DNA of 64,000 nucleotides. It comes from Flintibacter sp. KGMB00164 (GTDB lineage: Bacteria > Bacillota > Clostridia > Oscillospirales > Oscillospiraceae). The position numbers and the translations under genes are program-made. The notes under the pieces are model-generated. The model saw only the letters and a program-made list of their open reading frames with translations. It did not search any database and was not told the origin of the DNA. Location: positions 1,798,001 to 1,862,000 of the forward strand of contig NZ_CP044227.1 of NCBI RefSeq assembly GCF_008727735.1. The letters run 5' to 3'. This document shows, piece by piece, positions 3,733 through 25,096 of this stretch (positions are counted from its first letter, which is position 1; every line of letters starts with the position of its first letter).

Positions 3733-4446
3733 TCAAAATCGATTTCGTTCCAGTTCCAAACGGGCGGTAATCCGCCAGTCGGTCCCGGCATCTTTTGGGA
3801 CAGGGTCCGTCCCCTGCTGAGGGTTGGGGTTGGCCTTGATGTAGGCCGCCCGAAGGGCGTCCAGATCAGGCAGGCCAAAGGCATTGACCAGACTTCCGGG
3901 ACTCATCCCCTGGCTCTCCTGCCCCAAGATCTCATCCACAAGGCCGTGATCCAGGGCATCCTGGGCGGTAAGCCAGGTTTCGGAGCTCATCATCCGCCGC
4001 AGGCTGGCCCGGTCGCTCTTGCCCCGGGCCTTCAGTTCGTAGGCATTGAGGATGGCCTCCCGGGTGCTGTCCAGCATGCCGATGGAGCGCTGGTGGGCGG
4101 TCCGATCTCCGTCGGTACTGGTACTTGGCAGGTGGATCATCATCTGGGCCACCGGGGAGATGGCCACCGTATCACAGCCCAGACAAAGATAACTTGCTGC
4201 GCTGGCCGCCAGGCTCTGGATCTCCGCCCTGGTGTGCAGGCCACTGGCCTTCAGCACCGAGTACATCTCGCTGCCGGCAAAGACAGAGCCGCCGGGGCTG
4301 TTGATCTCCAGCACCAGTTCCTCCCCCTCCGGATTGGCGGCAATGGCGTCCCGCACCTGCTGGGGAGAGAAGGCCGAATAGCCAAACCACTCATAGATCC
4401 ACTTGTCGTCGTCGGCAGATACGATACCGTTCAGAGTCACTCTCAT
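3733..4446 (-). CDS. Prohead (head maturation) protease, ClpP-like
   Basis: The 237-residue protein has the ClpP fold signature: LEINSPGGSVFAG near residue 50, the nucleophile serine in SLAASAAS near residue 80, and the catalytic histidine in MMIHLPST near residue 105. Such enzymes cut the capsid delta domain during head maturation. It lies between portal (4-base overlap, ATGA type) and capsid (16-base gap), the canonical order. The last ~40 residues (NPNPQQGTDPVPKDAG) are low-complexity and may be removed or act as a linker. Confidence 0.93.
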   Translation of the reverse strand: MRVTLNGIVSADDDKWIYEWFGYSAFSPQQVRDAIAANPEGEELVLEINSPGGSVFAGSEMYSVLKASGLHTRAEIQSLAASAASYLCLGCDTVAISPVAQMMIHLPSTSTDGDRTAHQRSIGMLDSTREAILNAYELKARGKSDRASLRRMMSSETWLTAQDALDHGLVDEILGQESQGMSPGSLVNAFGLPDLDALRAAYIKANPNPQQGTDPVPKDAGTDWRITARLELERNRF

Positions 4447-5714
4447 GTGTTTTCACCTCCGCTTCCTGTATTTCGGTTGACTGACAGCTCTCTCCACAAG
4501 GAGAGGGGCACATAGTTCAAGGAGGCCAGGCGGTCGTCGCCGCCCTCCACATCGGGCATATCCTCCAGCCGGTTGATGTCATTAACCGAGAACACGCCGA
4601 TCTCCCGCATGTTCTTATACCAGGCACTCCGGGCGGCGTTGTCGCCCCGAAGCTCGGCCATCATATTGATGCGCAGCTCCAGCCCGGCGGCGATCTGGTC
4701 GGCAAAGAGCATCTTGTAGGTCTGCTCCTCCTCGTACTGGGTGACGATGGGGTGCAGGGTCGATACCACATACTCAATGGCGTTCTGCTCGTTGGAGCTG
4801 TACGCCTGTTTTCCCTCCTGGAGCTTATAGAGTGGGATTCCAAAATACCGGGCAATGTCCCGGATAGCCACCTCCTGGCTTTCGATAAATTGGGCGTCCT
4901 TGTTGCTCAGGCTGACCGACTGATATTTCAGGCCATAGTCCAGAATAGCGATTCGGTTGGCGTTGGTTGGGCCAGAGTGAACCCGCTCCCAATCCCGGCG
5001 CAGAAGGTCTTTTCTGCGGATCTTCTGCTCTGGGTTTTCCGGGTCATTCACGCTGCCGGACAGGTCAGTATCCGTCTGGAGTACTCCGCCGGGCTGCCCA
5101 CCGTTTTCGTAGTAGCTCAGGTCGTGCTGCTGCCGGGCCCTGGCTGCCGTAATTACCTCTGCCGCCCTCTGCAACACCGAGATCCCAGTGATTCCATCCC
5201 GGGACGCCCCCTTGTAGTGGTTCACATCAGCATGGGAAAGGGTGAACACGCTGCCGGATGCCGGATCCCGGACATTGTGCCATACCCGTCCGGCGGTATC
5301 CCGCCAGGTATAGACCAGCTCTCCGGGCAGGGGGATCAGCTCCATGATTTCTGCCGTATAGGGGTTGCGCCGGATCCAGTCGTAGCTGTTCCCCCGGGTC
5401 AGGCGGCTGGCCTCCAGTAGCTTTTTCCGTACCGACGGCGCCATGGCCTCATTGGGACGGATGTTCAGTAGCCGTAGCAGGGGCAGCTCAACCCGCTCAC
5501 GGGTCACCCGATCCACGCAGTAGGTGGGCAACTTGGCCATGGAGTCGCTGAGGATCTCAATGCACCGGTCCACCGCACTGAGCTTTCGGGCCGCTGTCTC
5601 GCTGGTGTCCAGCGTGGTAGGCGAATAGCCCACCGCTGTGAGGGTGTCTGCCGTTACGGCGTTCTTGACAGAGGGAGAGCGGGCCACCGCCCGGAGTCCT
5701 TTTGCCACGCTCAC
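4443..5714 (-). CDS. Phage portal protein (HK97 type)
   Basis: The 423-residue protein builds the dodecameric ring at one capsid vertex through which DNA is packed and ejected. It carries typical portal features: an N-terminal ATDTLTAVGYSPTTLDTSETAARKLSAVDRCIEILSDSMA-type helix region (AVDRCIEILSDSMAKLP), VNHYKGASRDGITGISVL in the middle, and RYFGIPLYKLQEG. The start is GTG, overlapping the stop of the upstream 59-residue gene in a GTGA junction, which supports translational coupling. Downstream it overlaps the protease gene by 4 bases. Confidence 0.93.
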   Translation of the reverse strand: MSVAKGLRAVARSPSVKNAVTADTLTAVGYSPTTLDTSETAARKLSAVDRCIEILSDSMAKLPTYCVDRVTRERVELPLLRLLNIRPNEAMAPSVRKKLLEASRLTRGNSYDWIRRNPYTAEIMELIPLPGELVYTWRDTAGRVWHNVRDPASGSVFTLSHADVNHYKGASRDGITGISVLQRAAEVITAARARQQHDLSYYENGGQPGGVLQTDTDLSGSVNDPENPEQKIRRKDLLRRDWERVHSGPTNANRIAILDYGLKYQSVSLSNKDAQFIESQEVAIRDIARYFGIPLYKLQEGKQAYSSNEQNAIEYVVSTLHPIVTQYEEEQTYKMLFADQIAAGLELRINMMAELRGDNAARSAWYKNMREIGVFSVNDINRLEDMPDVEGGDDRLASLNYVPLSLWRELSVNRNTGSGGENT

Positions 5715-5890
5715 TGCTCACCGCCTCCCCCCAGGGAACTGAGTACCGCGCCCGCCAGCAGGAACACGCCCGCGGCGATTACTCCGGCGGGTATGGAGTA
5801 CATCCCTGTCCCCAGACTCACCAGTGCCGCGCCGGCAGCCATCACCAACTCCGTAGCATACTCCGCCACCGCTTTTTTCAGTTCCTTCAT
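5711..5890 (-). CDS. Small membrane protein between terminase and portal
   Basis: A 59-residue frame starting MKELKKAVAEYATELVMAAG, with an AAAGGAG site 8 bases upstream. Residues from about 15 to 52 are strongly hydrophobic (LVMAAGAALVSLGTGMYSIP, then AGVIAAGVFLLAGAVL), giving one or two membrane segments. The stop overlaps the portal GTG start in a GTGA junction. Function is unknown. The good ribosome site, exact coupling and hydrophobic design argue it is expressed. Confidence 0.75.
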   Translation of the reverse strand: MKELKKAVAEYATELVMAAGAALVSLGTGMYSIPAGVIAAGVFLLAGAVLSSLGGGGEQ

Positions 5891-5904
5891 TGATGCTCCT
5901 TTCT

Positions 5905-5921
5905 GTGTCCAACTTGGACAC
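5905..5921. repeat. Palindrome GTGTCCAACTTGGACAC, copy 2
   Basis: Perfect odd palindrome in the short gap between the terminase stop (5924) and the 59-residue gene start (5890). It is identical to the palindrome at 2204-2220 except for the central base. Confidence 0.9.
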
Positions 5922-5923
5922 CG

Positions 5924-7687
5924 CTACAAACTAAAGTCCGGCCGAGCCAGGGCTGCCGCCAAATCGGGCTTCTGGGCCTGTTTGGCCATAGCCGTGGCCA
6001 TGGCGATGATCCAGGCCACCGTGATGTCGATACGGCCCACGCTGCGGTTTTTCATGGGTTTGAGGTTCTCGTTGCCGTCGGTGGCACAGCGCACATTGCC
6101 AAAGCACCACCGGGCGGCGGTATTATGCTCGTGGAGCATCTCGTGCTTGCGCAGCAGCAGCTCCACCTGCTTGGTGGCCGGGCTCATGCCCATCATAGTC
6201 TGGGAGATCTCAATAACCTCCAGCCCCTCCTGCTCCTCTGTCCCCTGCATCAGCCGCTGGGATAGTGTCCAGGACAGGGCGGGGTCCAGCCCCAGGGTCA
6301 CCAGGTTAAAGTCCCTGGCCGCCTCCCAGATGGTCTGCTCCACGGCGTCATAGTCGATGATGTCGCCTGGACAGCCCTGGAGAAACTCCGCCCGGATCCA
6401 GTCTCTGTAGGGCACCCCGTCCCGGGTCTCCCGTGCCTGAAGGTCTTCCAAAGGCACCCATGCCCAGAACAGAACCACCCAGGTCTCCAGGCCATCCTGG
6501 GGCGGGAACAGCAGCACAAAGGCGGTTAGGTCTGTGCTCTTGGATAGGTCCAGCCCACCATAGCACCGCTTTCCTCGCAAATACGCACGCACAGCCTGCC
6601 GGCGGGCGATCACACTCAGCCCCTCCCACTCCGGGCGGTTCCACTGGGTTTTGTCGTAGATGGTAAGGGGCACCCAGCCCACCGACTTGACGGCGATCCA
6701 CTGGTTGAGGCGCAGCCAGCGAAACAACCGCTCTGCCGCCTCGCTCTGCCGGGCCGCCCGGGCCTCCTTCCGGAAGTCCTTGATTTTCAGGTTGTGGCCA
6801 AGGCCGGGATTGCAGGCATACCACAGGGTCTCGTCGTAGATATCCAGCTCCTCGATCTTGTCCGGGTCGTCCCCGGTAAGCACACCGATTCCAAACATGA
6901 TAGGGCACCACTCGGGCAGATCGGCGTCCATCTCCCGCTCCGGCTCCCCCCGCCGCCAGGCCAGGATCCTCCGACACTTCTCATGGATCTCCCAGCCAAT
7001 GCTCTTGCGGTCTGGGTCATCTCCTGCCGTAGTCAGCACGATCACCGCTTGCTGCCGCCGGGCGGCATCGGAACCGGCAGTGAGCACGTCCCACAGCCGC
7101 CGGTTAGGCTGGGCGTGGAGCTCATCGATGATGATGGCGGAGAAGGAAAAGCCATGCTTGGAGGCAGCCTCGGAGGAATATACCTTCATCAGGCCGCCGC
7201 CTCTTGTGCGGATCTCTCGCACGCTGTCCCGGCACCAGACCAGTGGGTCGTGCTCGGGCTGAGATAGGGCAGTATGCTCCACCATAAACTTGGCGCACTG
7301 GTAGATAATATCCGCGTTGGTCTTGTCGGCGGCGAAGACTCCCACTTGGGGCCGGGGCTCCCCGTCTGCCATCAGGTGGTAGAGACCAAGGCCAGCGGCA
7401 AATTCACTCTTGCCATTCTTTTTAGGGATCTCCTCATAGAGGAAACGCCGGTACCGGCTCCAGCTCCCGTCCTCGTCTTGGGCCTGGACACCGTAGAACT
7501 GGCGGATAGCCTCCTCCTCCCAGCCGGACAGCTCAAAGGGCTTACCCGCCCACTCGTTCTGCCCGAATACCAGCATGGAGAAGAAGGCACGGACCATGTC
7601 CACCTCGTTCGGACTGTACCGCAGCACAGTGCCGTCGTCCGGCTTCACTACAGCCACCCCGCCCCCAAGCTGTAACATTTCAGGCAC
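5924..7687 (-). CDS. Terminase large subunit
   Basis: This 587-residue packaging motor cuts and translocates phage DNA. Visible motifs are a Walker A-like IPKKNGKSE at about residues 87-95, Walker B AIIIDELHA at about 184-192 with the catalytic glutamate in place, a coupling segment VIVLTTAGDD at about 215, and the first nuclease aspartate in YGGLDLSKSTD near 380. Start is GTG with GGAGG nearby, overlapping the small terminase stop by 8 bases. Length is usual for Terminase_1-type proteins. Confidence 0.95.
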   Translation of the reverse strand: MPEMLQLGGGVAVVKPDDGTVLRYSPNEVDMVRAFFSMLVFGQNEWAGKPFELSGWEEEAIRQFYGVQAQDEDGSWSRYRRFLYEEIPKKNGKSEFAAGLGLYHLMADGEPRPQVGVFAADKTNADIIYQCAKFMVEHTALSQPEHDPLVWCRDSVREIRTRGGGLMKVYSSEAASKHGFSFSAIIIDELHAQPNRRLWDVLTAGSDAARRQQAVIVLTTAGDDPDRKSIGWEIHEKCRRILAWRRGEPEREMDADLPEWCPIMFGIGVLTGDDPDKIEELDIYDETLWYACNPGLGHNLKIKDFRKEARAARQSEAAERLFRWLRLNQWIAVKSVGWVPLTIYDKTQWNRPEWEGLSVIARRQAVRAYLRGKRCYGGLDLSKSTDLTAFVLLFPPQDGLETWVVLFWAWVPLEDLQARETRDGVPYRDWIRAEFLQGCPGDIIDYDAVEQTIWEAARDFNLVTLGLDPALSWTLSQRLMQGTEEQEGLEVIEISQTMMGMSPATKQVELLLRKHEMLHEHNTAARWCFGNVRCATDGNENLKPMKNRSVGRIDITVAWIIAMATAMAKQAQKPDLAAALARPDFSL

Positions 7688-19431: not shown

Positions 19432-19475
19432 TTTTAGTTTCAAATAACTCCCCACTTTTGAAAGGTGGTTATCGT

Positions 19476-19862
19476 ATGAAACTGAACCCGGATTGTGTCC
19501 GATCGGTGCTTTTAGAGATTGAAAAATTAGGTTTTAATGAACATGCAACGATTTCTTCTCTCCATACCGCTTTACCGGATTACTCTGAGGAAGATCTGGA
19601 ATATACCTGTTTTATTCTTAGTGACGGTGGTTTTTTAAACATTGAGAGCATTGATCTTCCAGGGCAGTTTCTTCCAGCTGTAAAAGCGGTCTACTCCATG
19701 ACATACAAGGGACATGAATTTCTTGAGAAAGTTCGTGCAAATAAAATTTGGTCAGCAATAAAAACGATTGGCGAAAAGCTTGGTGTTCAGACTTTGGATG
19801 GATACAGTATGATCGGGGCGAACATTCTCACGGAAATCATCAAAAACCATTTCGGTTTCTGA
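19476..19862 (+). CDS. DUF2513 domain protein
   Basis: 128 residues from ATG 19476, with AAAGGTGG upstream. The opening MKLNPDCVRSVLLEIEKLGF and the later VYSMTYKGHEFLEKVRANKIW match DUF2513, a winged-helix-like family found in prophages and genomic islands. It is AT-richer than the surrounding prophage. It is transcribed from the plus-strand promoter at 19379-19407. Its 3' end overlaps a small minus-strand gene by 23 bases. Likely DNA-binding, exact role unknown. Confidence 0.85.
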   Translation: MKLNPDCVRSVLLEIEKLGFNEHATISSLHTALPDYSEEDLEYTCFILSDGGFLNIESIDLPGQFLPAVKAVYSMTYKGHEFLEKVRANKIWSAIKTIGEKLGVQTLDGYSMIGANILTEIIKNHFGF

Positions 19863-20190: not shown

Positions 20191-20526
20191 TTGGATGCCT
20201 CCACTTTTGTACAAAATGTAAAATACCTATGTTTAAAAAAGGGCATTAAACCAACCAACGCCTGTAAAGATGCTGGAGTTGGGGGAAGCTTTTTGAGTGA
20301 CATCTTGAACCGTGGCAGTACCCCATCAGTTGCCAAAGTACAGATGTTGGCCAACTATCTGGGTGTAACCACCAGCGAACTTTTGGGAGAAACAAAAAAG
20401 CCCACCGTCCAAGACGATGGGCTTACAGAAGCCGAGCAGGCACTTATGGATTTGTTTCGTCAGCTGACGCCGGATCAGCAGGACATGGTGATCCGCATGG
20501 TGCAGGCGGCTGCTGACAAGCAATAA
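20191..20526 (+). CDS. XRE-family (CI-like) prophage repressor
   Basis: 111 residues starting at TTG 20191, with AGGAG 9 bases upstream. The helix-turn-helix is at residues ~5-60 (VKYLCLKKGIKPTNACKDAG, GGSFLSDILNRGSTPSVAKV, MLANYLGVTTSELLGE). A C-terminal helix (LTEAEQALMDLFRQLTPDQQ) serves as the multimer part; there is no LexA-type peptidase domain, so induction must work in another way. It faces the operator region 20069-20159 and is the best candidate for the lysogeny repressor. Confidence 0.88.
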   Translation: MDASTFVQNVKYLCLKKGIKPTNACKDAGVGGSFLSDILNRGSTPSVAKVQMLANYLGVTTSELLGETKKPTVQDDGLTEAEQALMDLFRQLTPDQQDMVIRMVQAAADKQ

Positions 20527-20611
20527 TAGCCTGGGCGGCTATGACAAGCAGCGCAGCAGGATCTTTGCTGCCGCGGATGATAGATAACAGTCTCTCTTCC
20601 CTGCTGGTCAT
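20444..20611 (-). CDS. Small helical protein antisense to repressor end
   Basis: 55 residues (MTSREERLLSIIRGSKDPAA...), with AGGGGGCGG before the ATG. The motif SIIRGSKDPAALLVIAAQAII resembles many small Firmicutes prophage proteins of unknown function. Its last 28 codons overlap the 3' end of the CI-like gene on the other strand. Coding in this orientation therefore rests on the ribosome site and the recognisable motif. Confidence 0.55.
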   Translation of the reverse strand: MTSREERLLSIIRGSKDPAALLVIAAQAIIACQQPPAPCGSPCPADPASADETNP

Positions 20612-20733
20612 ATTGCCGCCCCCTTTTATGTTGTCGTATTGCAATTATAGAACATATGTACTATAATTTCAATAGAGCACTACTAATTTTAATGTCTCTG
20701 GCACTACAAAACAGAAAAATGGGGGAAAATGGT

Positions 20734-22059
20734 ATGGAAATTGTCTTTCTTGTCATCGCTATCGTGTTTCTTGTGCTCTGGCAGTTGGAAAAGAGAAAGA
20801 GTACCACAGTAAAAAATCTGGAAGTAGAGCGAGCTGCGGCCCGCTCCTACGTCGAAGATAGAAAAGCCGAAGGTGACGCCTTACTGGAAGAAAAACGCCG
20901 TGAGGCCCTCGACTATTACTGGAAAAAAACCAAGAGTGCAGATGAGAAAGTAAAATCCGCAGAGGCCAAGGTGGAGAAGCTTGAGCAGGAAAAGGCCTCG
21001 CTGAACGAGGAACTTGGAACGCTCTATAATGAGGTTCTCTGTTCCATGACTTCGATCGATGCCTACTCCGACCTGAAGTCGGACGAGGTGAAGAACCAGT
21101 TAGCCTTGTTGAAAACCAGGGAGGACGAAGCCGTCAAGTCGGGAGCGGCCTTGGAAGTCTCTAACGAGAGCACCTCCAAAAAAGTTGTCGAGAGTCAGAA
21201 GAAGCAGATTCTCCGGTGCTTCAATGCGGAAAGCGCTTCTCTCATTGGTGGTGTCACTGTTAACAACGTAGACTCGGTGCGCACTAAACTCCAGCGCTCC
21301 TACGATGCACTTAATAAGATCTTTGCCGTGGACGGGGTAAAAATTTCCGAGGACTTTCTCGCTATGAAGTTCGAAGAAATGAGTCTTGTTTACGCTTATA
21401 TGGTCAAAGTTGAAGAAGAAAAGGAGCAGAAAAAGGCAATTCGTGAGCAGATGGTGGAAGAGGAAAAGGTCCGCCGTGAGATTGAGCGTGAAAAGCAGAA
21501 AATTGAGAAGGAAGAAAACCAGTTCAACAACGAAGTCAAGAAGCTGATGGGCTATATGCAGAAGGCAAAGGACGACGTTGAAAAACAGCTTTATATCGAT
21601 AAGATCCAGGAGTTGGAGGACAAACTCAAGGCCCTTGCCAGTGACAAGGAAAATGTCCTGCAGCGTGAGCAGAATACCCGGGCCGGATTTGTTTATATTA
21701 TCTCTAACATCGGCTCCTTTGGGGAAAGCGTGTATAAGATCGGCATGACCCGGCGGCTGGATCCTATGGACCGGATCAATGAGTTGAGCAGCGCCTCTGT
21801 CCCCTTTCCCTTTGATGTCCATGCAATGATCTTCTCTGAGGATGCTCCCGCACTGGAAACCCTCCTGCACCATCACTTCCAGGAGAACCAGGTCAATAAG
21901 GTTAATGCCAGAAAAGAATTCTTCCGTGTTGATCTGGATGAAATCAAGAAGCTCGTCCTTGAAAATCACAATGCCACGGTGAAATTTGTAGATATCCCGG
22001 ATGCACTTGAGTATCGTGAGACGTTGAAGATGGAAGAGGCAGCAAAAACTGCTCTATAA
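20734..22059 (+). CDS. SNIPE-like membrane nuclease (DUF4041 + GIY-YIG)
   Basis: 441 residues from ATG 20734, with GGGGGA 8 bases before it. Residues 2-17 are a membrane helix (EIVFLVIAIVFLVLW). A long charged coiled coil follows (to about 110), then a DUF4041 region with CFNAESASLIGGVTVNNVDS and YDALNKIFAVDGVKISEDFL, a second coiled coil, and a C-terminal GIY-YIG/T5orf172-type nuclease domain (AGFVYIISN..., VYKIGMTRRLDPMDRINEL, with catalytic-type Arg and Glu). This order is that of SNIPE, an inner-membrane nuclease reported to cut phage DNA as it enters. In a prophage it would protect the lysogen from other phages. Confidence 0.85.
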   Translation: MEIVFLVIAIVFLVLWQLEKRKSTTVKNLEVERAAARSYVEDRKAEGDALLEEKRREALDYYWKKTKSADEKVKSAEAKVEKLEQEKASLNEELGTLYNEVLCSMTSIDAYSDLKSDEVKNQLALLKTREDEAVKSGAALEVSNESTSKKVVESQKKQILRCFNAESASLIGGVTVNNVDSVRTKLQRSYDALNKIFAVDGVKISEDFLAMKFEEMSLVYAYMVKVEEEKEQKKAIREQMVEEEKVRREIEREKQKIEKEENQFNNEVKKLMGYMQKAKDDVEKQLYIDKIQELEDKLKALASDKENVLQREQNTRAGFVYIISNIGSFGESVYKIGMTRRLDPMDRINELSSASVPFPFDVHAMIFSEDAPALETLLHHHFQENQVNKVNARKEFFRVDLDEIKKLVLENHNATVKFVDIPDALEYRETLKMEEAAKTAL

Positions 22060-22091
22060 AATAAACAGAAATGAAAGAAATGAGATAAATA

Positions 22092-23336
22092 ATGATACAA
22101 GCAAAGCCATTAACACTTTACATGTTAGGGAATGGATTTGACCTTGCCCACGGACTTCCAACTACATATCGGGACTTCTTTTACTTTCTTGAGGCAATTA
22201 AAAGTCTGAGTTCCACACCACAAGATCCTAACGAAGTTCCCATGCTCCGCGACAATTTAACAGTTCCTACTTTAGCATATTTGAAAGATGCCTTTTCTTC
22301 ACCAGCACAGGTTCCTAATTACATCCAAGCTATCAGATCAGCCCTATGCTTTGACACCCCTACAGCAGAAAATCTGTGGCACGGTTTATTTCGCAAAAAA
22401 CTGCGTGAAAAATCACAACTAGATACATGGATTGATTTTGAAAAAGAAATTGAACATACTGTTAGTCATTTGCGCGATACACTTTTTTCAGAAAATTTTT
22501 CCCAGTCTGACATAGAGCAAATACGCTTATATATGGGAAAAGCTGCTTTCAACCATACCAAAAGGAGATTTAAAGAAGAAAAATTAGAGAAATATGAACA
22601 TGAGCTTTCTAAGTCAATAGATGGTTCTGTCAAAGCCACTTCAGTACTTTTAAGCTATCGCAATGAATACATTCTTTTTTTATACCATGAATTACAAAGA
22701 TATATTTTTTGTTTGGAATTATATCTGCGTTTTTATGTAATTGAACACTGTTTTAAAACAGGCCAAATAAATAGTTTTTTAAAAAGCTTATTTGACAGCA
22801 CTCACCCAGACTTTATTTTGTCATTTAATTATACTGATATCTATACATATTATGTTGATCAAATACAGCCCAGCGATATTAAAAAACACCATATTCATGG
22901 TAAACTTCGTACCACAGAACAATTACTAGCGGCTATAGAAGCAAAGGACTATCTTCACTCGCCGTTAGTATTAGGATTCCATAACCATGAAAAATTTGAA
23001 ACATCTGAGGATACCCAGCTTCTATGGTTTGAGAAGTTCTTTCAGCGTATGCTCTGCAAAACTGGCACTGATTTTTTCTCCTGGATGGAAAGAAGAGTTC
23101 CTGACAGAGGCACACTACTTCACACTATTATCTATGGTCATTCTTTAGACAAAACAGACGGAGATTTTATTCGTCTAATATTTGAAAAATCCGCAAAGAT
23201 TACTGTATACTATTATCACGAAACTGATCTTCCTCAACTTATTTCTAATCTAATATCGGTTTTTGATCGTAGTCAAGTGAATTTCTACTACACAATGGGA
23301 ACTCTTGAGTTTCTACCTATTCCAGAAAGCACCTAA
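22092..23336 (+). CDS. AbiH-family abortive infection protein
   Basis: 414 residues. The AbiH signature is clear: LYMLGNGFDLAHGLPTTYRD at residues 9-28, LSFNYTDIYTYY at 243-254, HHIHGKL at 266-272, and IIYGHSLDKTDGDF near 346. AbiH was named for lactococcal phage resistance; the mechanism is not settled. It follows the SNIPE-like gene by 32 bases on the same strand, so they probably form one defence operon. The gene is strikingly AT-rich compared with both neighbours, a sign of separate acquisition. Confidence 0.9.
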   Translation: MIQAKPLTLYMLGNGFDLAHGLPTTYRDFFYFLEAIKSLSSTPQDPNEVPMLRDNLTVPTLAYLKDAFSSPAQVPNYIQAIRSALCFDTPTAENLWHGLFRKKLREKSQLDTWIDFEKEIEHTVSHLRDTLFSENFSQSDIEQIRLYMGKAAFNHTKRRFKEEKLEKYEHELSKSIDGSVKATSVLLSYRNEYILFLYHELQRYIFCLELYLRFYVIEHCFKTGQINSFLKSLFDSTHPDFILSFNYTDIYTYYVDQIQPSDIKKHHIHGKLRTTEQLLAAIEAKDYLHSPLVLGFHNHEKFETSEDTQLLWFEKFFQRMLCKTGTDFFSWMERRVPDRGTLLHTIIYGHSLDKTDGDFIRLIFEKSAKITVYYYHETDLPQLISNLISVFDRSQVNFYYTMGTLEFLPIPEST

Positions 23337-23383: not shown

Positions 23384-23429
23384 AAAATCCGTCATTCGAA
23401 CATTCGTTTTCTTTCGACAGGAGGCCGCC

Positions 23430-24950
23430 ATGGATCACAACCGAAGCGCCGACCTTACCGGCCTGGATGCCGCCGTCTACCTGCGCAAGTCCCGCATGGA
23501 GGAGGGTCTAGCCACCGAAGAGGTGCTTTCCAAACACCAGAAGACCCTCTATGACTACGCCGCTGCCTACGGCATCCACATTCTGGCGGAGTACCCCGAG
23601 GTGGTCAGCGGCGAGTCACTCTATGCCCGCCCCCAGATGCTCCGTCTCCTTCAGGACGTGGAGGATGGTCACTACGACGCGGTGCTGTGCATGGATTTGG
23701 ACCGACTCTCCCGCGGCCGCATGAAGGATCAGGGCATCATCCTGGACGCCTTCCGGGAGTCGGGCACTCTCATCATCACCCCAGAAAAGGTCTACAACCT
23801 CTCCGACGAGATCGATGAGGAGTACGCCGAGCTGAAAACCTTCATCTCCCGCCGAGAGTACAAAATCATCACCAAACGACTGCGCCGGGGGCTCCAGATG
23901 TCCATCCAGGAGGGCTGCTACGTGGCCAACGCCCCATACGGCTACCACAAGACTGTGGTGGACCGCAAGCCCACCCTGGAGATCTACGAGCCGGAGGCAA
24001 AGTTTGTGCGCATGATGTTCCAGCTCTACGCCCAGGGGTATGGCTGCGTCGCTGTGGCCCGCCACGTCAACGCTCTGGGCGCCCGGCCCCACCGCTCCCC
24101 GGAGTTCTCCCGCAACAGCGTGGCCAAGATTCTTCGCAATCCCACCTATGTGGGCAAGATCGTCTGGAACCAAAAGAAGCACATCCGGAAGGGGGCCAAG
24201 GGGAATCCAAAGCATATCACCATCTACCAGCCTCGGGATCAGTGGACCATTACCGATGGCCTCCACCCTGCCATTGTGGACCGGGAGCTCTTTGACCAGG
24301 TGCAGGCCATCATGGATGGCCGCTACCAGCCGGCCAAGAACGACGGCACGGTGCGCAGCCCCCTGGCTGGGCTGGTGAAGTGCGTCAACTGCGGGCAGAA
24401 CATGCAGCGCATGGTGATGAAACAGAAGGCCTACTTGCTGTGTATGCGGCCCGGCTGCTGCTCCTCCACCCAGTTTGATTTGGTCGAGGACCAGATCCTT
24501 GACTACCTGGAGGACACCTTGGCCAAGCTGACCATGGATCAGCCCCAGCACATCCCCGGTCGGAATACCGACGTACTGGAGACCACCCTGGCGGCGGTAA
24601 AAAACGAGTTGGCCGGCACTGACCGTCAAAAGAACCGGCTGTATGAGCTGCTGGAGCTGGGAGAGTACGACCTACCCCTCTTCCGAGAGCGTATGGCAGC
24701 AGTGAAGGAGAAGCGAGCCGCCCTGGAAAAGAAAGAGGCGGAGCTGGAGCGCTCCCTGCGAGAAGTCCAATGCTCCAACCCCGCCCTGCTGGCGGAGCGG
24801 ATCCGGGCGGTGCTGGACGCCTACGGCACCGCCGATCCCGCCGGCAAGAATTCCCTTTTGAAATCCGTGCTGGACACGGTCTGGTATCAAAAGGAGAAGA
24901 AAACCAAGCCTTCCGACTTCCAACTGACCTTCACCCTCCGCGCCCTGTGA
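23430..24950 (+). CDS. Large serine recombinase (phage integrase)
   Basis: 506 residues. The resolvase domain has the catalytic serine in AVYLRKSRMEEG (Ser21), then VLCMDLDRLSRGRMKDQG near 90. The recombinase domain follows (GCYVANAPYGYHKT..., RNSVAKILRNPTYVGKIVWN), then a zinc ribbon (LVKCVNCGQNMQ ... LLCMRPGCC) and a C-terminal coiled coil (AALEKKEAELERSLREV). It inserts the phage at a short attachment site and needs a directionality factor for excision, which is not recognised here. The gene lies at the prophage edge, 20 bases from the cut host gene. Confidence 0.95.
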   Translation: MDHNRSADLTGLDAAVYLRKSRMEEGLATEEVLSKHQKTLYDYAAAYGIHILAEYPEVVSGESLYARPQMLRLLQDVEDGHYDAVLCMDLDRLSRGRMKDQGIILDAFRESGTLIITPEKVYNLSDEIDEEYAELKTFISRREYKIITKRLRRGLQMSIQEGCYVANAPYGYHKTVVDRKPTLEIYEPEAKFVRMMFQLYAQGYGCVAVARHVNALGARPHRSPEFSRNSVAKILRNPTYVGKIVWNQKKHIRKGAKGNPKHITIYQPRDQWTITDGLHPAIVDRELFDQVQAIMDGRYQPAKNDGTVRSPLAGLVKCVNCGQNMQRMVMKQKAYLLCMRPGCCSSTQFDLVEDQILDYLEDTLAKLTMDQPQHIPGRNTDVLETTLAAVKNELAGTDRQKNRLYELLELGEYDLPLFRERMAAVKEKRAALEKKEAELERSLREVQCSNPALLAERIRAVLDAYGTADPAGKNSLLKSVLDTVWYQKEKKTKPSDFQLTFTLRAL

Positions 24951-24970: not shown

Positions 24971-25096
24971 TCAAAGTATTAAAGACGCTATATCTTCCTC
25001 TTTGCAGGAATCAAAAATTTTCTTCGTGTGTATGCACACGGCCTCCCGAATGCGGCGCTCGTCGCTCACGGGACCGGGCACGACCTTTTCAGGCAT
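24971..25096 (-). pseudogene. 5' fragment of a host gene cut by prophage insertion
   Basis: From ATG 25096 (GGAGGG upstream) 41 codons read MPEKVVPGPVSDERRIREAV, CIHTKKIFDSCKEEDIASLI, L, then stop. I recognise REAVCIHTKKIFDSCK as the start of a widespread, longer Clostridia protein (normally continuing DKDCIEDLR...), probably spore-coat related. Here the match stops at DSCK and an unrelated tail follows. Because the integrase gene ends only 20 bases further left, the break should be the attachment junction; the rest of the host gene would lie beyond the other prophage end, outside this window. Confidence 0.65.
24985..25015. other. Probable prophage attachment site (right junction)
   Basis: The host-like coding sequence of the fragment changes to phage-like sequence around the codons for DSCK (about 24,998-25,009), next to the serine integrase gene. 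The exact core cannot be fixed without the other junction. Confidence 0.5.

Follow-up and report, generated by a model that had tools for sequence, protein, structure and literature searches.

The chromosome of Flintibacter sp. KGMB00164 carries a membrane-anchored nuclease gene of the SNIPE (PD-Lambda-1) type and an AbiH abortive-infection gene in tandem between the repressor and the integrase of a prophage, which raises the question of whether the two form one combined defence system or are separate genes that share a site. The window, the whole stretch of 64,000 nucleotides that was analysed, is part of a host genome assembled as a single contig of 2.92 Mb. The reading that best accounts for the locus, and that is probably correct, is that the slot between repressor and integrase takes exchangeable cargo and here contains two anti-phage genes, stacked but independent of each other, and not one system. 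The features on which this reading is based are as follows.

4446..7687 (-): genes for the portal and the terminase large subunit, in the same prophage
20191..20526 (+): Xre-type repressor, 111 aa
20680..23355 (+): cargo segment with SNIPE and AbiH; the sister prophage of G762 has other genes in its place
20734..22059 (+): SNIPE / PD-Lambda-1 nuclease gene, 441 aa, encoding a predicted membrane helix (aa 1-19), a long coiled coil, DUF4041 (aa 157-212) and GIY-YIG (aa 318-408)
22092..23336 (+): AbiH gene, 414 aa, SIR2-like by predicted fold and profiles, with GNGFD (aa 13-17), Asn246 (22827-22829), His269 (22896-22898) and G-H-S (349-351)
23430..24950 (+): serine integrase, 506 aa (PHROG 95, 1.4e-97)
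24993..25000 (no strand): attR region, with the crossover within a few bases, from the uninterrupted site of a same-genus genome

The original prediction had placed two plus-strand genes within 20734-23336, separated by 32 bases and part of a lysogeny module, and all of this was confirmed, with the genes at 20734-22059 and 22092-23336: the Xre-type repressor, in which no peptidase domain was found, lies upstream and the serine integrase downstream. The prophage measures ~37.8 kb, its ends being set by the uninterrupted site of a same-genus genome (G759), in which one side corresponds to the sequence up to genome position 1785215 and the other to that beyond window position 24993; attL lies near genome position 1785208. 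A search for exact direct repeats as att sites identified none, and the empty site of the relative gave the ends instead; both ends carry inverted arms, as expected for a serine integrase. The terminase, portal, major head, tape measure and baseplate wedge genes, the last two of which sit just left of the window, make a contractile tail likely. A duplicated lysis segment, also left of the window, consists of two endolysin-type genes in one prophage (L312:2850-3695 and L312:7077-7883, both on the minus strand) that have a common N-terminal sequence, each with similar small genes next to it. An AT-rich DUF2513 gene (19473-19862, plus strand) precedes the repressor, and one of the sister prophages (L361) has it as well.

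The predicted family of each gene was upheld by Pfam and PADLOC profile matches. The SNIPE protein matched the PADLOC PD-Lambda-1 model over nearly its full length (1.5e-119), as well as Pfam DUF4041 (4.1e-17) and GIY-YIG in the form of MUG113 and T5orf172 (6.1e-21 and 2.5e-18); NCBIfam had no model for this protein or for AbiH. Its reading frame is open from 20656, but the start at 20734 is the one that agrees with its relatives (MEIVFLVIAIVFLVLW...), and the predicted promoter is upstream of it. The mean hydropathy of residues 1-19 is 2.28 and the next residues are EKRK, which supports the membrane anchor of the original prediction. Glu375 (codon 21856-21858), invariant among 30 relatives, occupies the alignment column of Glu414 in the PD-lambda-1 protein of E. 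coli phage PhiR26_1, and E414A removes defence in E. coli (PMC13190303). The predicted structure (pLDDT 84, pTM 0.47) consists of a long helix and a C-terminal domain, the top PDB matches of which include, as a weak match, the GIY-YIG nuclease Slx1. The DUF4041 domain, the C-terminal GIY-YIG domain with its catalytic Glu and the N-terminal membrane anchor are thereby all present, as in the E. coli SNIPE (PMC13190303), from which the protein differs in its length (441 aa, against 500 aa in the E. coli phage homologue), in its N terminus and in its setting, the repressor-integrase slot of what is likely a contractile-tail prophage in an Oscillospiraceae host. Further hallmarks of the SNIPE family are the cutting of phage DNA during injection and the binding of the tape measure protein. 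In E. coli, SNIPE acted on siphoviruses and spared the myoviruses tested (PMC13190303), so by analogy its carriage may cost this phage little.

The AbiH protein matched Pfam AbiH (PF14253) across the whole domain (residues 9-371; 1.8e-28; 100.8 bits against a cut-off of 30.9), and the PADLOC AbiH model weakly (3.7e-8). An alignment of 43 AbiH sequences showed conservation of GNGFD, FNYT, HIHG, one glycine and YGHSL...D, and the window AbiH has a full-length open frame with all of the family-invariant residues. It shares the whole-domain match and these residues with the AbiH of Lactococcus lactis S94, which was tested in Streptococcus thermophilus and the mechanism of which is listed as unknown (PMC12322248), but is only about 20-30% identical to most members of the family. 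Direct relatives were absent from the phage records, and from the viral contigs searched with the single AbiH sequence, and the plasmid collection gave one weak match. The AT-richness noted in the original prediction was also evident, G+C being 35.3% in AbiH (28% at third positions), 47.6% in SNIPE, 60.7% in the integrase and 58.8% in the window.

A Sir2 assignment of AbiH was already predicted in 2012 (PMC3506569), and the present results agree with it. Searching the PDB chains with the AbiH sequence produced no useful match, and the link is drawn instead from the fold match and from bridging profiles. The predicted AbiH structure (pLDDT 84.8, pTM 0.87) had as its 15 best PDB matches in Foldseek only the E. 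coli SIR2 of SIR2-HerA, at values that are weak in absolute terms (E from 5e-3, probability 0.98, TM-score about 0.36), with DSR2, Avs5, yeast Hst2, ThsA and SIRT2 ranking lower. Four stand-alone proteins of about 310-335 aa (at L340, L344, L345 and L348) carry both AbiH and SIR2_2 signatures, two of these places being matched by both Pfam models, and bridge the families: the AbiH profile matched the bridge at 1.7e-6 and the bridge matched SIR2_2 at 4e-9, as compared with 1.9e-4 for AbiH against SIR2_2 directly and 0.49 for a control against the SNIPE profile. On this fold and profile evidence AbiH is SIR2-like. In the alignment, the Asn and His that are invariant in SIR2_2 proteins fall on Asn246 and His269, and the corresponding pair in DSR2, Asn133/His171, is required for NAD cleavage (PMC11087589). 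The SIR2 likeness and the position of these two residues make NADase activity the likeliest mechanism. The fold, the Asn/His positions and the glycine motifs are those of SIR2-type NAD-depleting defence proteins (DSR2, ThsA, SIR2-HerA and Avs5), from which AbiH differs in being a single short protein without partner domains and in that its NADase activity is predicted.

The relationship of the two genes was examined in a survey of 206 SNIPE loci, 162 of them distinct by their last 200 residues, with flanks of mostly 6-8 kb that are shorter at contig ends. The suggestion that SNIPE and AbiH pair as a combined system, for which a search for adjacent genes in other genomes had been proposed, was not borne out: AbiH was near SNIPE in none of the 161 other distinct SNIPE loci, leaving the window as the only case, and SNIPE was near AbiH in 0 of 55 AbiH viral loci. 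These neighbour counts show no conservation of the pairing. This genome is the only one of 400 from the bacterial family in which both genes occur, and each is found without the other, SNIPE in related layouts and AbiH in three sister prophages.

The position of SNIPE itself follows a rule. It was counted over the distinct SNIPE loci that have an integrase within reach: the nearest integrase lies downstream on the same strand in 80 of 83 (45/47 viral and 35/36 genomic), against a chance expectation for side and strand of about a quarter; the AbiH viral loci, treated alike as a control, have this arrangement in 2 of 9. The order repressor, SNIPE, integrase is present in the annotated phages EJ-1, Javan476, PMBT9 and PLE3, and PhiR26_1 departs from it. 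The interval between SNIPE and the integrase contains extra room or genes in about half of the loci, including BstA (L068), AbiQ/ToxN (L063), Abi_2/AbiD, a second SNIPE (L297) and further candidates, and in phi5218 an Abi-like gene follows SNIPE. Most genes in these other intervals had no defence match, and PDC-S13 and similar PADLOC candidates, which may be Bro-N antirepressors, were excluded from the defence counts.

Comparison with about ten sister prophages points to exchange of the whole cargo segment. The closest of these (G762, locus L326) has the same attachment site and a 96% identical integrase, and its flanks match the window at 20390-20679 (94.5%) and from 23356 onward (88%), with the cargo replaced by a lipoprotein gene and a DUF4236-type gene, both labels being read from sequence, and a gene of 138 aa. 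Sister prophages with integrases 68-77% identical also carry other cargo. This high gene turnover between two conserved phage genes is that of a hotspot, and the slot between repressor and integrase is, as judged from these alignments, an exchangeable defence-cargo slot. In another sister, the same slot (L364:5971-6640, plus strand) holds a nucleotidyltransferase gene followed by a small gene that is HepT-like by eye, a pair of toxin-antitoxin type.

Three further prophages, in G761, G774 and G755, lie next to the same chromosomal gene and carry AbiH just upstream of the integrase without SNIPE. In G761, the gene directly before AbiH and the integrase (L362:4066-5028, plus strand) encodes 321 aa, in which a membrane helix at the N terminus (hydropathy 2.65) and a long coiled coil are joined to a DEDDh exonuclease domain, and has only two clear relatives (in G029 and G202) above the general DEDDh background. 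This protein has a SNIPE-like build with another nuclease and may be a new defence protein akin to SNIPE. The AbiH gene of G755 is preceded by a DEDDh-BRCT gene and a Uma2 gene, and in G774 no nuclease was seen with AbiH in the slot. The main new fact on AbiH here is that, across these sister sequences, it is a recurrent integrase-side occupant of the slot whose partners change.

These comparisons bear on two alternatives. In a combined system, SNIPE would sense injection and AbiH would be its NAD-depleting or cell-killing arm; the shared strand, the 32-base interval and the replacement of both genes as one segment relative to the sister prophage speak for such an arrangement, as do the other nuclease genes upstream of AbiH in two of the three AbiH-carrying sisters, one of which has the SNIPE-like membrane helix and coiled coil. 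The counts of 0/161 and 0/55, the restriction of the two genes together to this genome among the 400, the sister in which AbiH has no nuclease partner and the very different base compositions of the two genes stand against it; the combined system was rejected on the neighbour counts, and is unlikely. It could also be supposed that AbiH is passive AT-rich baggage or is decaying, given its 35% G+C and its identity of only 37-39% to the AbiH proteins of the three sisters, the integrases of which are 68-72% identical. However, the frame is open over its full length, every conserved family residue is kept and the sister AbiH genes are AT-rich as well, making this reading very improbable.

The features that bear on expression of the two genes lie around the short region between the repressor and SNIPE, with a further site before the integrase.

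20398..20424 (-): terminator-like hairpin, ending the antisense unit
20444..20611 (-): antisense mini-gene, 55 aa, overlapping the 3' end of the repressor gene and kept with other cargo
20639-20667 (+): predicted promoter towards SNIPE, TTGCAA-17-TATAAT
20672-20644 (-): predicted promoter towards the antisense mini-gene, TTGAAA-17-TATAAT
20650..20661 (no strand): putative LexA-like box GAACATATGTAC between the promoter hexamers
23398..23409 (+): second putative LexA-type box GAACATTCGTTT, about 20 bases before the integrase start, also in the closest sister

The two divergent promoters overlap (20639..20672) and both have 17-base spacers. The box between their hexamers differs by one base from GAACN4GTTY, the clostridial LexA box being GAACN4GTTT/C (PMC4234289), and sister prophages have GAACATTTGTTT, GAACGTTTGTTT or GAACGTATGTAC at this position. 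The host lexA gene has GAACATCCGTTT upstream, and in the stretch examined upstream of recA no box of the GAACN4GTTT/C type was found. GAACN4GTTY has one match in the window against 2.3 expected by chance, so the argument for LexA is one of position and conservation, not of rarity. A perfect operator palindrome was considered and rejected, the sisters keeping the promoters and the GAAC half-site better than the palindrome. Across sisters, the antisense-side promoter is better conserved than the cargo-side promoter.

Short antisense genes that adjoin the repressor gene at its 3' end, or run into it there, are also present at L326, L359, L360, L361, L075, L079 and L080; they are not all alike in sequence, and in the closer sisters they start from a promoter with a LexA-like box. 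Such genes are possibly antirepressors or excision factors that trigger induction. In staphylococcal phage 80alpha, Ith is an inhibitor specific to the defence protein Tha (PMC11087260), but the recurrence of antisense genes in relatives with other cargo makes a cargo-specific inhibitor of that kind unlikely here.

No plus-strand terminator was found between SNIPE and AbiH. None was found between the repressor and SNIPE either, which leaves room for transcription to run on from the repressor into the cargo, and in 80alpha a defence gene is carried on the cI transcript (PMC11087260). Expression of both genes in the lysogen, expected in the original prediction from their orientation, is unproven, and would require such read-through or leaky or SOS-induced transcription, since the nearest promoter (20639-20667) overlaps both the divergent promoter and the LexA-like box. 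The integrase may be under SOS control through its own putative box.

It is therefore possible, at a tentative level, that LexA holds the slot promoter off in the undamaged lysogen and that the cargo acts during induction; one use of this kind, for example against co-resident or competing prophages, is similarly conjectural. SOS induction is favoured by the box of host lexA and by the two putative boxes of the slot, one in the promoter and the other before the integrase, which the closest sister shares; against it stand the possible read-through in the lack of a detected plus-strand terminator between repressor and SNIPE, the better conservation of the antisense-side promoter and the 80alpha precedent (PMC11087260). 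In a further reading, AbiH would be a second layer behind an interchangeable membrane-tethered nuclease, SNIPE or the DEDDh protein of L362, with the pair raised by SOS through the LexA box shared with the antisense mini-gene. This reading has a low probability; if true, defence, integrase and induction would be switched together, and the antisense mini-gene runs into the repressor.

Under the preferred reading of two independent genes in an exchangeable slot, SNIPE and AbiH are probably co-transcribed with the integrase. The cargo would owe its basal expression to a repressor transcript that reads through, as in 80alpha, or to a leaky SOS-controlled promoter, and the slot's own promoter, bracketed as the slot is by LexA-type boxes, would probably be raised by DNA damage. 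SNIPE, seated in the membrane, would cut incoming phage DNA, mainly of siphovirus type, during injection, and AbiH, with its SIR2 fold and triggered by infection, would most likely destroy NAD and abort the infection when the first line provided by SNIPE fails.

Repressor-integrase hotspots with variable defence genes have been described in P2-related Vibrio phages (PMC9122126) and for Tha of 80alpha (PMC11087260), and in both precedents, as in the window, the defence genes run in the direction of the repressor. The 80alpha locus also has a small antisense gene (PMC11087260). The present slot differs from these hotspots in that a change of cargo leaves the antisense mini-gene in place and in that the LexA-like box lies within the shared promoter. 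The gene families and this kind of hotspot are known; the location rule of SNIPE, the placement of AbiH and the putative SOS-type control are new. No rule on gene location was found in the sections consulted of the SNIPE paper of 2026.

By these data SNIPE is a standard lysogeny-module gene, with the integrase, when one is near, nearly always downstream on the same strand, and this location suggests prophage self-protection as a main role. The same rule can be used to search for further defence genes in the interval between SNIPE and the integrase. Cargo of this kind is usually assumed to be simply constitutive in the lysogen, which the LexA-like boxes call into doubt, and the SIR2 NADase link would give AbiH, known since 1996, a testable active site.
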